Assembly (NCBI GenBank): GCA_024280215.1
Contig: JAJRQO010000023.1
Span: 1 to 64,000 of the forward strand
DNA from: Candidatus Zixiibacteriota bacterium
GTDB taxonomy: Bacteria > Zixibacteria > MSB-5A5 > GN15 > FEB-12
DNA: 64,000 bases
Reading direction: 5' to 3'
This document shows positions 12,152-64,000 of the stretch, one piece after another. The translations under genes were made by a program, and so were the position numbers. The notes below the pieces were generated by a model. That model was not told the origin of the DNA. It saw nothing but the letters and a program-made list of their open reading frames with translations, and searched no databases. Position 1 is the stretch's first letter; each line of letters begins with the position of its first letter.

Positions 12152-12631
12152 TTATTCACCAAAACTTTTATCTGAATCAAACCTAATTTTATTTCCCCAA
12201 TCTCTTTGATAATATCCACCCTCAAAATATTTCATTAACGAAGAATGGTTATATGTAAATGGGTCATCTATAAATTTATGTTTTACGGGATTGTAATGTA
12301 TATAATCTAAATGATTATTGAAATCATTTTTGTCTCTTATAATATGATCCCAATATCTGTTTTGCCAAACCTTTCCTTTGGCAACTGTTTGGTTATAGTT
12401 CCATGTGTAGGTTCTTTTAAAAGAGTGCATAATCTTTAAAATCTCTTGTTGTTCTACATTAAGCATAACATGAAAGTGGTCTTGCAGAATAACCCAAGCG
12501 ATTGGTTGAATAGTTTTCCAGCTTTTCCAGAAGAAATTTATATTATTTAAAAGAATTGGTTGTCTGTTGTGAGTTACAGCTGTAATAAAATAATATCGAT
12601 TTTTAAGTTGGTATCTTCGAAGTGATTTCAT
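12152..12631 (-). CDS. REP-associated tyrosine transposase (RAYT, Y1_Tnp/HUH family)
   Basis: 159 residues. Such proteins are single-strand nucleases related to IS200/IS605 TnpA that cleave at REP hairpins. The HUH-type motif appears as DHFHVML and the catalytic Tyr region as YIHYNPVKHKF. The C-terminal extension typical of RAYTs (HSSLMKYFEGGYY) is present. The gene is bracketed by two inverted hairpins with outward GTAG tetranucleotides, the usual RAYT arrangement. Related hairpins occur elsewhere in the window, so this domesticated-type enzyme may have spread them. Confidence 0.88.
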   Translation of the reverse strand: MKSLRRYQLKNRYYFITAVTHNRQPILLNNINFFWKSWKTIQPIAWVILQDHFHVMLNVEQQEILKIMHSFKRTYTWNYNQTVAKGKVWQNRYWDHIIRDKNDFNNHLDYIHYNPVKHKFIDDPFTYNHSSLMKYFEGGYYQRDWGNKIRFDSDKSFGE

Positions 12632-12675
12632 GTATAGAATATATATTGTATGACTGACACATAGTGTCAGTATTT

Positions 12676-12718
12676 GTCGGGTTCTGCACGCTAAAGCGTG
12701 CTTGGAACACTGACCTAC
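12676..12718 (-). repeat. REP-type hairpin, right partner of the RAYT gene
   Basis: GTCGGGTTC (12676-12684) faces GAACACTGAC (12705-12714). An inner GCACGC/GCGTGC stem closes on TAAA. CTAC (12715-12718) is the GTAG head on the minus strand. It is the mirror image of 12101-12147. Confidence 0.8.
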
Positions 12719-12791
12719 GGTTAAAATACTACCCAGATGTCAATAATATGTCAGTTCACTTTGAATTTGTTCTAACTGTTTCTGCACTAGA

Positions 12792-12809
12792 TTCCGGCTA
12801 AAGCCGGAA
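12792..12809. repeat. Short palindromic hairpin
   Basis: TTCCGGC and GCCGGAA pair around TAAA. It is an isolated G+C-rich hairpin in A+T-rich intergenic DNA with no T-run, so it reads as a short REP-like element rather than a terminator. Confidence 0.45.
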
Positions 12810-12884
12810 AGGAGTTGTGATGAATTGTAAATACGTTATAAAAAATAGTTATTAGTTTTAATAACATATTACAGTCAACGTCTG

Positions 12885-58843: not shown

Positions 58844-59002
58844 CTTGACGAAAAAGCTATTTTTGTATACTATAGTTATAAAATAACTAACTGATTTCTA
58901 CATTCAGCCAAGATTATACAGGATTTTACCATACTACAGTTTCATGTACATACGTACGATATATATAGATAGATTACCAACCGTCAATTTTTGAGGATCT
59001 AT

Positions 59003-61420
59003 TTGAAAAAACTGCTCATTATCATTTCTTTTACTCTAATTGCAACTTCCCTTTCTGCCAATATAACTGTTCGGCTTGATAGGCTCTATTGCATTTCATC
59101 GGGCGAAATTGTCGACTTGCCTATTCTTCTTGAAAACAGTTTTCCGTCGTATCAATTAGGCGGTTTTGATTTCTTGATTGAACATGATAGCAGGCTGATT
59201 TTTTTGCAAGCATCACCTGGCGAATTGTTGACAAATTGTGGATGGGAGTATTTCACTTATAGTTCTCCGTCGGTTAATACTATCCGTGTCGTTGCCCTTG
59301 CCGAAACCAACAACGGCCCCAATCATCCGAGTTGTTTTGCAGAAACATCAGGAAAGCTGGCATCGCTTCGATTCCAAATAGCATCCGATACAACTTTTAT
59401 CAATGACTTCCTTCCAGTATGGTGGAGCTGGTCAGACTGTGGCGACAATACGGTTTCATCGCAGGATGGAAACGCACTCTATATCTCTGACTCTGTTTAT
59501 TTTTTCAATGGCTCCAATGAAACTAACATTACACAGGATGCATTTTTTCCAACCCCTTATGGTTCTCAAGCAGAATGTATTGCCGAAGTTTCCCCAACAC
59601 CGATTCGTATGATTGATTTTTATACGGGTGGATTTGATATTTCTCCAAATGGGTTTCAAGTGACTTGTATTTCAGATATAGTGACTGCAAACGATAGTGG
59701 TACTTGTGGAGCGATTGTAGCCTTTGAAATTCCGATAAACTCAAGTTGTGCTGGGATGGGAGTAGAAAATTTTCCACCTTCTGGTTCTTTCTTTCCAATT
59801 GGGTCAACTATTGTAACATCAGTTGCGACCGATAACATCGGGCATATTGACAGTTGTTCATTTTTTATAACTATTGAAGATAGAGAAGCACCGACGGTGA
59901 TTGAATTTCAAACTGATACAACATTATATACAGTCACTGGCGAATGGTGGTCGCAACTCAGCTATGATTTTTCTGCAATAGATAATTGTTCGGAGGTGAC
60001 GCTTTCAAGTTCTCACCCGACAGGGTCATACTTTGCTATTGGCAATACAACTGTTTACTGTTTTGCAACGGACTCATCGGGTAATGTCGACACAACATCA
60101 TTTGTCGTAACAGTCATTGACAATGAAGCTCCTGTTGTAACATGTCCCGAGACAATATTTCTTCCAAATGAAAACTCTTTGTGTGGAGCAGTCGTTCAGT
60201 TTTTAGTGACTGCATCTGATAACTCTTTACAATCAACACTAACTGTCTCTGAAACCTCTGGTACATTTTTCCAAGTCGGTACAACCTATGTTGCCGCTAC
60301 CGCAGTTGATCCATATGGTAACTTTGATAGTTCTGGATTTTATATAATTATAGAGGATGTCGAACCACCTCAAATTTCTTGTATCGAAAATATCGTTATT
60401 GCAAATGATATCGGAACTTGTGGAGCAGTTGTAACTTACGATATTATCGCAACCGATAACTGTGGCACACCTACCATCGAAAATTCGGTTCCTTCGGGTT
60501 CATTTTTTCCAATTGGTTCAACTTTAGTTGTATCAAAAGCAGTTGATAACTCTCTTAATATTGACAGTTGTCTGTTCTACGTTATAGTGCAAGACAATGA
60601 ACCACCACAAATATCGGCACCACTTGATATTGTTACGAGTGCAGACCCTGATGCCTGTGGGGCGATTGTTGCTTATGAGTTTACAGTATCGGATAATTGT
60701 AGTGGATATACGGTACAAGCAAATTATGAAGCGGGGTCATTTTTTGAAATAGGCTCGACATTAGTTCTCTTGGAGGTAACTGATGTCGCTGGTTTAAAAG
60801 ATTCTGCTTCATTTACTATTGTTGTCGAAGATAATCAACCTCCAACTATATCAAACTACCCCGACTTAAATCTGTTTTCAGACTCAGGCTTCTATGGAGC
60901 AGTTGTCAATTACGATCCTCTTATCTCCGATAATTGCCAACTTGATTCAGTAACTATAAATCCTCAGTCGGGAGCATACTTTGAAATTGGTTTTAGTGAG
61001 GTTCAGATTGTGGCAGTTGACATGTTTGGCAATATAGATTCGGTAACATTTATTGTCAATGTAGAGTTACAGGACGTCGACAACGACCAAGTCGCAGATT
61101 TTGAAGATAACTGTGTCACATCATATAATCCACTTCAAAAAGATAGCGATGCCAACGGAGTCGGAGATGCCTGTTGTTGCGTGGGGATTCGTGGGAATAT
61201 CGACAATGGTTTTGAGAACCCTCCGAGTAATAATGGAATTGATATTTCTGATATTGTCTTCTTGGTCGCTTATATGTTTGGTGTACCGAGCGGTCCTTCG
61301 CCTGCATGTCCCGCAGAAGCGGATATTGATGCGAGTGGAGCGATAGATATTTCTGATATTGTACATTTGGTCGGTTATATGTTTGGCGATTCTGGCGTGC
61401 CACCCCAAAATTGTCTATAA
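59003..61420 (+). CDS. Secreted cohesin-like/HYR-repeat protein with C-terminal dockerin-like repeats
   Basis: 805 residues from TTG 59003, six bases after GAGG. A signal peptide (MKKLLIIISFTLIATS, cleaving near 19) is followed by a cohesin-like beta domain (about 25-190, with YQLGGFDFLIEHDS). Six HYR-type repeats follow, each with a GSFFPIGST-like segment and a late V-x-D-N-E-x-P pattern. One calcium-binding thrombospondin type 3-like unit (DNDQVADFEDNC) and two dockerin-like units with DISDIVFLVAYMFG and DISDIVHLVGYMFG close the protein. It is probably a cell-surface adhesin or matrix protein. Confidence 0.82.
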   Translation: MKKLLIIISFTLIATSLSANITVRLDRLYCISSGEIVDLPILLENSFPSYQLGGFDFLIEHDSRLIFLQASPGELLTNCGWEYFTYSSPSVNTIRVVALAETNNGPNHPSCFAETSGKLASLRFQIASDTTFINDFLPVWWSWSDCGDNTVSSQDGNALYISDSVYFFNGSNETNITQDAFFPTPYGSQAECIAEVSPTPIRMIDFYTGGFDISPNGFQVTCISDIVTANDSGTCGAIVAFEIPINSSCAGMGVENFPPSGSFFPIGSTIVTSVATDNIGHIDSCSFFITIEDREAPTVIEFQTDTTLYTVTGEWWSQLSYDFSAIDNCSEVTLSSSHPTGSYFAIGNTTVYCFATDSSGNVDTTSFVVTVIDNEAPVVTCPETIFLPNENSLCGAVVQFLVTASDNSLQSTLTVSETSGTFFQVGTTYVAATAVDPYGNFDSSGFYIIIEDVEPPQISCIENIVIANDIGTCGAVVTYDIIATDNCGTPTIENSVPSGSFFPIGSTLVVSKAVDNSLNIDSCLFYVIVQDNEPPQISAPLDIVTSADPDACGAIVAYEFTVSDNCSGYTVQANYEAGSFFEIGSTLVLLEVTDVAGLKDSASFTIVVEDNQPPTISNYPDLNLFSDSGFYGAVVNYDPLISDNCQLDSVTINPQSGAYFEIGFSEVQIVAVDMFGNIDSVTFIVNVELQDVDNDQVADFEDNCVTSYNPLQKDSDANGVGDACCCVGIRGNIDNGFENPPSNNGIDISDIVFLVAYMFGVPSGPSPACPAEADIDASGAIDISDIVHLVGYMFGDSGVPPQNCL

Positions 61421-61519: not shown

Positions 61520-61726
61520 TCAGCTAAATCCTGAACTACACCCACCACCGTTGCCTCCACATGATGGAGAAGATTTTGAACTACTAATCGATGCAGCAAA
61601 AGAAGAAATCTGTTTTTCGACATTTTCGGATTGGCATGTTGTACAGACAACAGTTGAACGAGAGCCAAGGACTAACTCTTCAAATTTGTTGTCACACTCT
61701 GAACATTTGTATTCAAAAATTGGCAT
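61520..61726 (-). CDS. FmdB-family zinc-ribbon protein
   Basis: 68 residues. MPIFEYKCSECDNKFEEL and CTTCQSENVEKQISSF give the CxxC...CxxC zinc ribbon of the FmdB/CxxC_CxxC_SSSS group, with the typical Ser-rich and Gly/Cys-rich tail (CGGNGGGCSSGFS). It is proposed in the family as a small regulator of formamidase or sulfur-related genes, without firm proof. It lies three bases after the UGA-containing gene on the same strand. Confidence 0.9.
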   Translation of the reverse strand: MPIFEYKCSECDNKFEELVLGSRSTVVCTTCQSENVEKQISSFAASISSSKSSPSCGGNGGGCSSGFS

Positions 61727-61729
61727 AGA

Positions 61730-61912
61730 TTAATTCTTTTCTTTTTTATCAAACGACATCACCAGACCGGCAACAGCACCAAAGAGTAACATTGGATACG
61801 GGTTCGATGTCAATTGTCAGGTGGAACCCATGGCACAGATAGCAACATAGTATCCGTAGCCGAGTACCATACCTGCTCCAACAAATAGTGATATACGTTT
61901 TATTTTATTCAT
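61730..61912 (-). CDS. DUF6132-like small membrane protein with an in-frame TGA (putative selenoprotein)
   Basis: Reading from ATG 61912 gives 60 codons ending in TAA at 61730-61732, interrupted once by TGA at 61817-61819 (codon 32). The sense parts are FVGAGMVLGYGYYVAICAMG, ST, then the TGA, then QLTSNPYPMLLFGAVAGLVM. This matches the DUF6132 pattern of a GxxxGYxYY helix, a Cys-x-x-G-x-Cys-like turn followed by (P/A)-(I/L)-T-S-N-P, and a second helix. The TGA stands at or next to the second Cys position. It could encode selenocysteine, or the gene could be broken by one mutation. FmdB starts three bases downstream. Confidence 0.55.
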
Positions 61913-61966: not shown

Positions 61967-62356
61967 TTAAACAGAAATATCCATAATATGTTTCAATTTC
62001 TCTTCTACTTCCATTGCCATCTCTTTAAGTTCATCTTTTTGAATAAAAGAAGAAATGACAGATGGGAGAAATAATGTTACTTCGACTTTTCCATCTTTGT
62101 CAGTTACCACATATTTACATGGCATAAAAAGAGCGACTGATGGATCGATACCTAATGCTTTATAGGCAAAACCAGCGTTACAGACTTCCATAATTTTGAG
62201 CGGATTGATAGTGAATTCTTTTTCGGCAAGCGTTGCAGTGACATCGTGGGTGTGGAGTACTCGAAACATATTGTCGGCAACATTTTTCTCAAGTGATGCG
62301 ATAGTCTCATCAAATGATTTTGATGATGTTTTTACGTAAGTTATATTTTGTTCCAT
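61967..62356 (-). CDS. DUF302 domain protein
   Basis: 129 residues. The DUF302 core SFDETIASLEKNVADNMFR, then PLKIMEVCNAGFAYKALGID and LFMPCKYVVTDKDGKV are present. Two Cys (EVCNA and PCK) recur in a subgroup of the family and might bind a metal or thiol. The function is not known. It lies 54 bases upstream of the UGA-containing gene on the same strand, in a possible operon of small redox proteins. Confidence 0.9.
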   Translation of the reverse strand: MEQNITYVKTSSKSFDETIASLEKNVADNMFRVLHTHDVTATLAEKEFTINPLKIMEVCNAGFAYKALGIDPSVALFMPCKYVVTDKDGKVEVTLFLPSVISSFIQKDELKEMAMEVEEKLKHIMDISV

Positions 62357-62510: not shown

Positions 62511-62927
62511 CTACTCATTTATAATTTCATAACTCGATGTTACTTCGGCGACTTCTTTCATTGTCTGGCTAACAACACAGAATTTTTCCTCAGACATACT
62601 TATTGCTTTTTTAAGGCGTTTTTCTTCAAGATTTTTGCCCGTAGCGGTGAATTTAATCTCAAAAGTGTGGAATGGCTTTGGATAGTCATCTTGTTGGTGA
62701 GCAATAACTTCAATCTTGAGAGCAGTCATTTCCTGACGTTGTTTTTTCATCAGACGGACAATATCGACACCCGCACACCCTGCTATACCATAGAGGATTA
62801 GCTCAGTCGGTTTGTAACCTGCCGATGTGCCACCATGTTCTTCGGCGGTGTCGGTTGAGATATTATGCCCAAAGGCAGAGACCGAGTCAAACTTCATACC
62901 GCCAGCCCAGTTCATTTCTATTTTCAT
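62511..62927 (-). CDS. OsmC/Ohr-family protein
   Basis: 138 residues. OsmC-fold proteins reduce hydroperoxides with a pair of Cys; YGIAGCAGVDIVRLM has the first Cys and EEKFCVVSQTMK the second, so the site appears intact. The N-terminal strand MKIEMNWAGGMKFDS is typical. It is the first gene of the downstream run with DUF302, the UGA-interrupted protein and FmdB. Confidence 0.92.
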   Translation of the reverse strand: MKIEMNWAGGMKFDSVSAFGHNISTDTAEEHGGTSAGYKPTELILYGIAGCAGVDIVRLMKKQRQEMTALKIEVIAHQQDDYPKPFHTFEIKFTATGKNLEEKRLKKAISMSEEKFCVVSQTMKEVAEVTSSYEIINE

Positions 62928-63360: not shown

Positions 63361-64000
63361 CTATTTTAACAGAATCATTTTCTTAGATGATTTGTACTGT
63401 TCTGTTTCTAAACTGTAAAGATATATCCCGCTTGTGACATTTTTCCCTAAGTTATTTGTTCCATCCCATGTTACTGTATGACTGCCTGCTAAATATAGAT
63501 TATCAGTTAAAAGTCGTACTTCCTCTCCTAATATATTATAAATTGTAAGTTTCAAATCGGTTTTAGTCGGTATTGTAAATGATATTTCTGTTGTAGGATT
63601 AAATGGGTTAGGATAGTTCTGACTTAACTCAAACCCAGTTGGAAGTTCAGCAGAAATATCATCAATATCAGTAGGTACTTTTCCAAAGGCATAAACATCA
63701 CCAGTTATCGATGCGATAAAAAGCTTGTTATTAGCTATTGTCAGATATCCGCCTGCTGGGTATTCCCAAACTTTTTCTTGAGTTGCTAAATCAAGGGCTA
63801 TTGTTTTATTTTGGGTAGATACGAAGATAAGTCCATTTGCAATTGCAGTTGAATAAGCAGTAAGGGTATCGAGAGGATATCGCCATTGTTCTTCACCAGT
63901 TAGACCATCCATAGCAATTAAAGTATCTAAAAAGATATTGTATACGTTCCCTTCACATATTGTTGGAGTACTTAAGATTACATTCCACATAGAAAAGAAA
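63361..64000 (-). CDS. Secreted beta-propeller protein with T9SS-type sorting domain (5' end outside window)
   Basis: Open to the window edge; at least 209 residues of the C-terminal part. Residues about 15-120 contain repeated PQQ/WD-like strands, for example GLTGEEQWRYPLDTLTAYS and ALDLATQEKVWEYPAGG. The last 80 residues are a type A sorting domain: LSQNYPNPFNPTTEISFTIP, KLTIYNILGEEVRLL and SGIYLYSLETEQYKSSKKMI. Such a tail routes proteins through the type IX secretion system in FCB bacteria. The ATG at 63990 is unlikely to be the true start because the frame continues past the window edge. Confidence 0.8.
   Translation of the reverse strand, partial: FFSMWNVILSTPTICEGNVYNIFLDTLIAMDGLTGEEQWRYPLDTLTAYSTAIANGLIFVSTQNKTIALDLATQEKVWEYPAGGYLTIANNKLFIASITGDVYAFGKVPTDIDDISAELPTGFELSQNYPNPFNPTTEISFTIPTKTDLKLTIYNILGEEVRLLTDNLYLAGSHTVTWDGTNNLGKNVTSGIYLYSLETEQYKSSKKMILLK

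Follow-up and report, generated by a model that had tools for sequence, protein, structure and literature searches.

The mechanism by which bacteria insert selenocysteine (Sec) is known; the protein family described here is new to it. Neither DUF6132 nor the motif found in this family appears among the 119 prokaryotic selenoprotein families inventoried in 2026 (PMC13188914). No selenoprotein model of NCBIfam (June 2026) matches any of 25 Sec-form sequences at E<=0.1. A literature search for DUF6132 yielded no paper on the family, and the string match obtained is a paper on a nucleotide sugar transporter. The selenoprotein family is absent from current catalogues and thus appears to be new, with GOS_A as a possible exception; GOS_A comes from a 2008 ocean survey (PMC2398784), which knows it from two metagenome reads and prints neither an accession nor a sequence for them.

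Several described systems resemble parts of this locus. The Cys forms of DUF6132, such as those of Marinilabilia, Bacteroides fragilis and families f9/f10, are alike in length, in having two Gly-rich helices, and in a C/U-x-[ILM]-[TM]-x-[NS]-P turn in which the U column aligns with the second Cys of C-x4-C. They differ in that Sec replaces Cys here and the partner Cys is displaced (C-x5-U in the window protein, U-x3-C in most Sec relatives). A putative mercuric transport selenoprotein (MerT-like, PF02411, C/SxxU; PMC13188914) is also a small integral membrane protein predicted computationally; however, no profile relation to it was found, and its motif and neighbours are different. Selenoproteins of the FmdB family (TIGR02605) and OsmC-like family (PF02566) from the GOS/Sargasso metagenomes belong to the same families as the operon neighbours discussed below, whereas at this locus Sec resides in the gene between them and the aligned matches of the neighbours have no stop codon inside them. 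As in the bSECIS consensus and E. coli fdhF, a hairpin is found just 3' of the UGA, with its loop mostly 20-28 nt downstream. In contrast to those elements, the loop sequence is variable and a second, covarying hairpin follows.

The gene and its protein family

The window, i.e. the whole stretch of DNA analysed, is 64,000 nucleotides long and comes from a Candidatus Zixiibacteriota contig. The gene, which encodes a Sec-containing, DUF6132-like small membrane protein, lies on the minus strand at 61730..61912 and consists of 60 codons and a stop. From 61912 down to 61730 it reads MNKIKRISLFVGAGMVLGYGYYVAICAMGST-[TGA]-QLTSNPYPMLLFGAVAGLVMSFDKKEKN-TAA, giving the protein MNKIKRISLFVGAGMVLGYGYYVAICAMGSTUQLTSNPYPMLLFGAVAGLVMSFDKKEKN*. 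Codon 32, the UGA at 61817..61819 (minus strand), is almost certainly read as selenocysteine because only TGA, TGC and TGT occur at this column among homologues. An earlier note on this DNA had described a 60-codon frame that one TGA interrupts, at codon 32, as well as C-x5-U spacing and a TSNPYP stretch; all of these are present as described, and the strand, which the note did not give, is minus. Reassignment of UGA throughout the genome can be ruled out, since TGA is the stop codon of 9 of the 42 long frames in the window.

The note had also called the gene DUF6132-like. This description holds for the features of the protein, as its two helices, the Cys/Sec turn between them and the TSNP that follows the turn are those of the family. 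It does not hold for the profile score: against Pfam DUF6132 (PF19628) the window protein reaches 20.6 bits (E=3.5e-4), below the gathering cut-off of 23.2. Two other Sec forms score similarly (L112, 21.7 bits; L113, 20.0 bits), and the Cys forms L040, L091 and L044 score 37.6, 28.1 and 26.9 bits, all above the cut-off. The C-x5-U of the window protein also departs from the C-x4-C turn of DUF6132; the spacing varies in other members too.

An AlphaFold2 model of moderate confidence (pLDDT 70.6) places helices at residues 3-27 and 39-57 and residue 32 in the turn between them. The protein is thus predicted to cross the membrane with two helices, and the Sec to sit in the short turn that connects them. 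A Foldseek search against the PDB gave no significant fold match. Because the N-terminus is positively charged (Lys/Arg) and is followed by two helices, both termini are probably cytoplasmic, and the selenol would face outward.

Evidence for selenocysteine at codon 32

The codon at the TGA column was followed through two sets of genomes. By tblastn, a homologue is found in 24 of 60 related genomes, and all 24 have TGA at the same column. A profile search of 132 genomes of the phylum finds the family in 69, with TGA at exactly this column in 56 (family f1 contributes 42 of these, f4 11, f5 two and f15 one) and Cys in the other 13, which are spread across f5, f6, f9, f10, f15 and f16. Nine further homologues, from Bacteroidota and Clostridia, all have Cys. 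Over 78 distinct sequences the column therefore holds TGA 56 times, TGC 14 times and TGT 8 times, and no other codon. These counts answer two checks proposed in the earlier note, whether relatives have Cys at the TGA column and whether homologues share the TGA, in favour of Sec: every homologue without TGA has Cys, and 56 distinct sequences have TGA. Its claim of a conserved Cys near the TGA fails, as the upstream Cys of the window protein, Cys26, is absent from most Sec relatives, which have U-x3-C instead; it cannot count as a conserved partner. The only residues that every Sec form and every Cys form share are Gly18, Sec/Cys32 and Gly49.

In a tree that was built on few columns and is to be read with caution, the Sec forms occur in three places: f1 together with f4, f15, and f5. 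One Sec form and one Cys form are sisters in f15, with mixed support (99/53), and Sec and Cys forms fall within one clade in f5 (support 96/88). Close relatives with Sec or Cys at the same position include L098 (genome G111) versus L109 (G112), and L112/L113 versus L110/L111. The exchanges in f5 and f15 offer a natural comparison of selenium and sulfur in one protein. The Sec gene was not found in four f1 genomes that are 97-99% complete and have selB (G014, G018, G020 and G036).

Selection on the two halves of the gene is the same. In 16 close pairs, pN/pS is 0.28 before the TGA and 0.28 after it, and this equality of purifying selection argues for in-frame translation of the codons that follow the TGA.

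The genome encodes a full kit for Sec insertion, for which the earlier note had proposed a search: selA (C40:52036-53112, 436.9 bits), selB as the gene directly downstream of selA (L002 10173-12062, 322 bits), a tRNA-Sec(UCA) with anticodon tca (C40:40198, 63.7 bits), and selD (C39:48581-49501, 372 bits). The selD gene itself contains one in-frame TGA, followed 3' by a SECIS-like hairpin (GCCAAA-GUU-UUUGGC) whose loop is 20 nt away from it. Across the phylum selB is nearly universal, being above the cut-off in 113 of 132 genomes. A search for a Sec formate dehydrogenase returned 0 matches above the cut-off and 0 in-frame stops within matches.

Hairpins downstream of the UGA and rival readings

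The hairpin at the position expected of a SECIS (hairpin 1) was assessed by its folding energy. The null permutes synonymous codons within columns, so that the proteins and the codon make-up of each column stay fixed. Counting the first base of the UGA as 0, the region is nt +12..+44, corresponding to 61775..61807 (minus strand) in the window. In the Sec forms (n=53) its energy is -12.1 kcal/mol versus -8.2 expected (z = -12.1). In the Cys forms (n=22) the same region gives z of +0.8 to +0.9, and the hairpin is absent. Sliding windows peak at +12..+44 (z = -12.0); no other position, and no position in the Cys forms, comes close to this value. The apical loops of the Sec forms start mostly 20-28 nt after the UGA, so the family has a hairpin after the UGA whose loop falls within the 16-37 nt published for bacterial SECIS elements (PMC13188914).

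The window's own copy of hairpin 1 is weak. It has a 4-bp CCAA/UUGG stem and the loop UGUUACUCU, which begins 25 nt after the UGA; the canonical hairpin has about -2 kcal/mol and misses the published threshold of -7.5, and the whole fold of nt 3-66 has -14.2 kcal/mol. The apical loop contains the G that the bSECIS rule expects only when it is taken as 9 nt long. The hairpin is stronger in congeners of the window gene (L013, -11.4; L014, -7.8; L015, -11.1). The weakness of this copy explains why the earlier note could not fold a SECIS; the check it proposed comes out in favour of a hairpin strongly conserved across Sec forms, and against a strong one in the window copy. RNAalifold did not detect hairpin 1 on the ungapped alignment, because the register of the hairpin shifts between sequences. 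An Rfam search gave chance matches only.

A second hairpin, GUUGCC-GGUCU-GGUGAU, lies at 61757..61774 (minus strand), nt +45..+61 on the same count. Its cells are paired in 84% of cases, and changes on both sides occur in 5 of 6 pairs. None of 500 shuffles reached its covariation score, in a test that relatedness may inflate. In the window copy it has -4.3 kcal/mol. Its loop lies 48 nt after the UGA. The GGUCU sequence, which we take to be also the loop of the E. coli fdhF SECIS, at first favoured hairpin 2 alone as the SECIS; this was rejected because the GG of the loop is imposed by a conserved Gly codon and is shared by the Cys forms, and because the protein-preserving null far prefers hairpin 1 (z = -12 versus 4.6 for hairpin 2 against the codon null).

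Because 56 genomes keep the UGA where other relatives have Cys, we consider the window gene almost certainly an intact 60-residue selenoprotein with Sec at codon 32. The column codons, the machinery, the selection and the family-wide hairpin all support the selenocysteine proposed in the earlier note. SelB and the UGA-reading tRNA-Sec would insert selenocysteine at codon 32, and the comparative data suggest that an RNA hairpin starting about 15 nt after the UGA would direct the insertion.

Two other readings deny this. A sequencing or assembly error for TGC or TGT, or a fresh pseudogene, might be suspected in a genome that is a 42-contig assembly, the more so as a single base separates TGA from TGC/TGT. 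Such an origin is rejected and has a negligible probability: TGA is shared at the same codon by 55 other genomes, selection after it matches that before, and the operon and the reading frame are maintained. It is also very improbable, if slightly less so, that the UGA is a purposeful stop that yields a 31-residue peptide, with the long form made by occasional read-through (Trp or a near-cognate). UGA is leaky in bacteria, and the weak SECIS of the window copy would fit this reading. However, homologues that lack the TGA all encode Cys at the column, and neither Trp nor Arg occurs there; the second helix is conserved in the family; the hairpin is restricted to Sec forms; and SelA, SelB, SelD and tRNA-Sec are all present.

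The operon and a possible redox role

The gene is part of a run of genes on the minus strand, the products of which the earlier note named as FmdB, DUF302 and OsmC; Pfam confirms all three. The osmC-like gene (62511..62927, E=4e-16) is the first of the conserved run. The DUF302 gene (61967..62356, E=7e-16) is upstream of the Sec gene in the same operon, and the fmdB zinc-ribbon gene (61520..61726, Zn_ribbon_8, E=1.4e-13) starts directly 3' of it. Most members of f1 and f4 share the order osmC-DUF302-[Sec gene]-fmdB, DUF302-[gene]-fmdB is retained around the Cys forms of f16, and fmdB is downstream in all in-phylum members examined. The aligned FmdB, DUF302 and OsmC matches contain no stop codon at any locus examined, which makes Sec specific to the gene between them. 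Cys forms in Bacteroidota have as neighbours thioredoxins, a rhodanese and a methyltransferase, arsM-like in our own reading, at L037, and a flavodoxin, DoxDA and a thioredoxin at L044.

From this neighbourhood, the protein could provide a selenol redox centre, anchored in the membrane, to a small module in which OsmC, DUF302 and FmdB also take part and which would handle thiols, peroxides or sulfur. We hold this tentatively, at a little under even confidence; the protein would then act in the membrane as a redox relay for such compounds, and the thioredoxins, rhodanese and DoxDA beside Cys-form relatives count towards such a role. Handling of metals or metalloids, by a small membrane carrier like MerT, is a distinctly less probable role for the selenoprotein. 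Small membrane selenoproteins of the MerT type are known (PF02411; PMC13188914), the methyltransferase gene adjoins the Cys form at L037, and the position of the partner Cys is variable, all of which would suit a carrier. Against it, Pfam shows no relation to MerT, and none of the neighbours, whether OsmC, DUF302 and FmdB or the thioredoxins, rhodanese and DoxDA of the Cys forms, is a metal pump. Returning to the redox reading, its fullest version is speculative and rather doubtful: the outward-facing membrane selenol of the conserved operon might serve OsmC, DUF302 and FmdB as a redox relay, with the UGA served by a two-part SECIS made of the canonical hairpin and the second covarying hairpin, whose loop is about 48 nt downstream.

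The family is one bound to escape automatic annotation, being a gene of about 60 codons split by a stop. Its recognition singles out Sec32 as the residue that is probably active in these uncharacterised membrane proteins, and it supplies a redox hypothesis by which the OsmC-DUF302-FmdB group can be tested.

Elsewhere in the window, a minus-strand frame at 12152-12835, presumably that of a REP-associated transposase-like protein, passes one TGA at codon 32 of its open stretch; this TGA is possibly just a stop 5' of the true start. A large secreted protein with dockerin-like repeats at its end is encoded at 58991-61420 (plus strand), and a protein with a C-terminal tail like a sorting signal (SQNYPNPFNP...) at 63361-63990 (minus strand). 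Both are, we assume, of a type known from Zixibacteria-like and related phyla.
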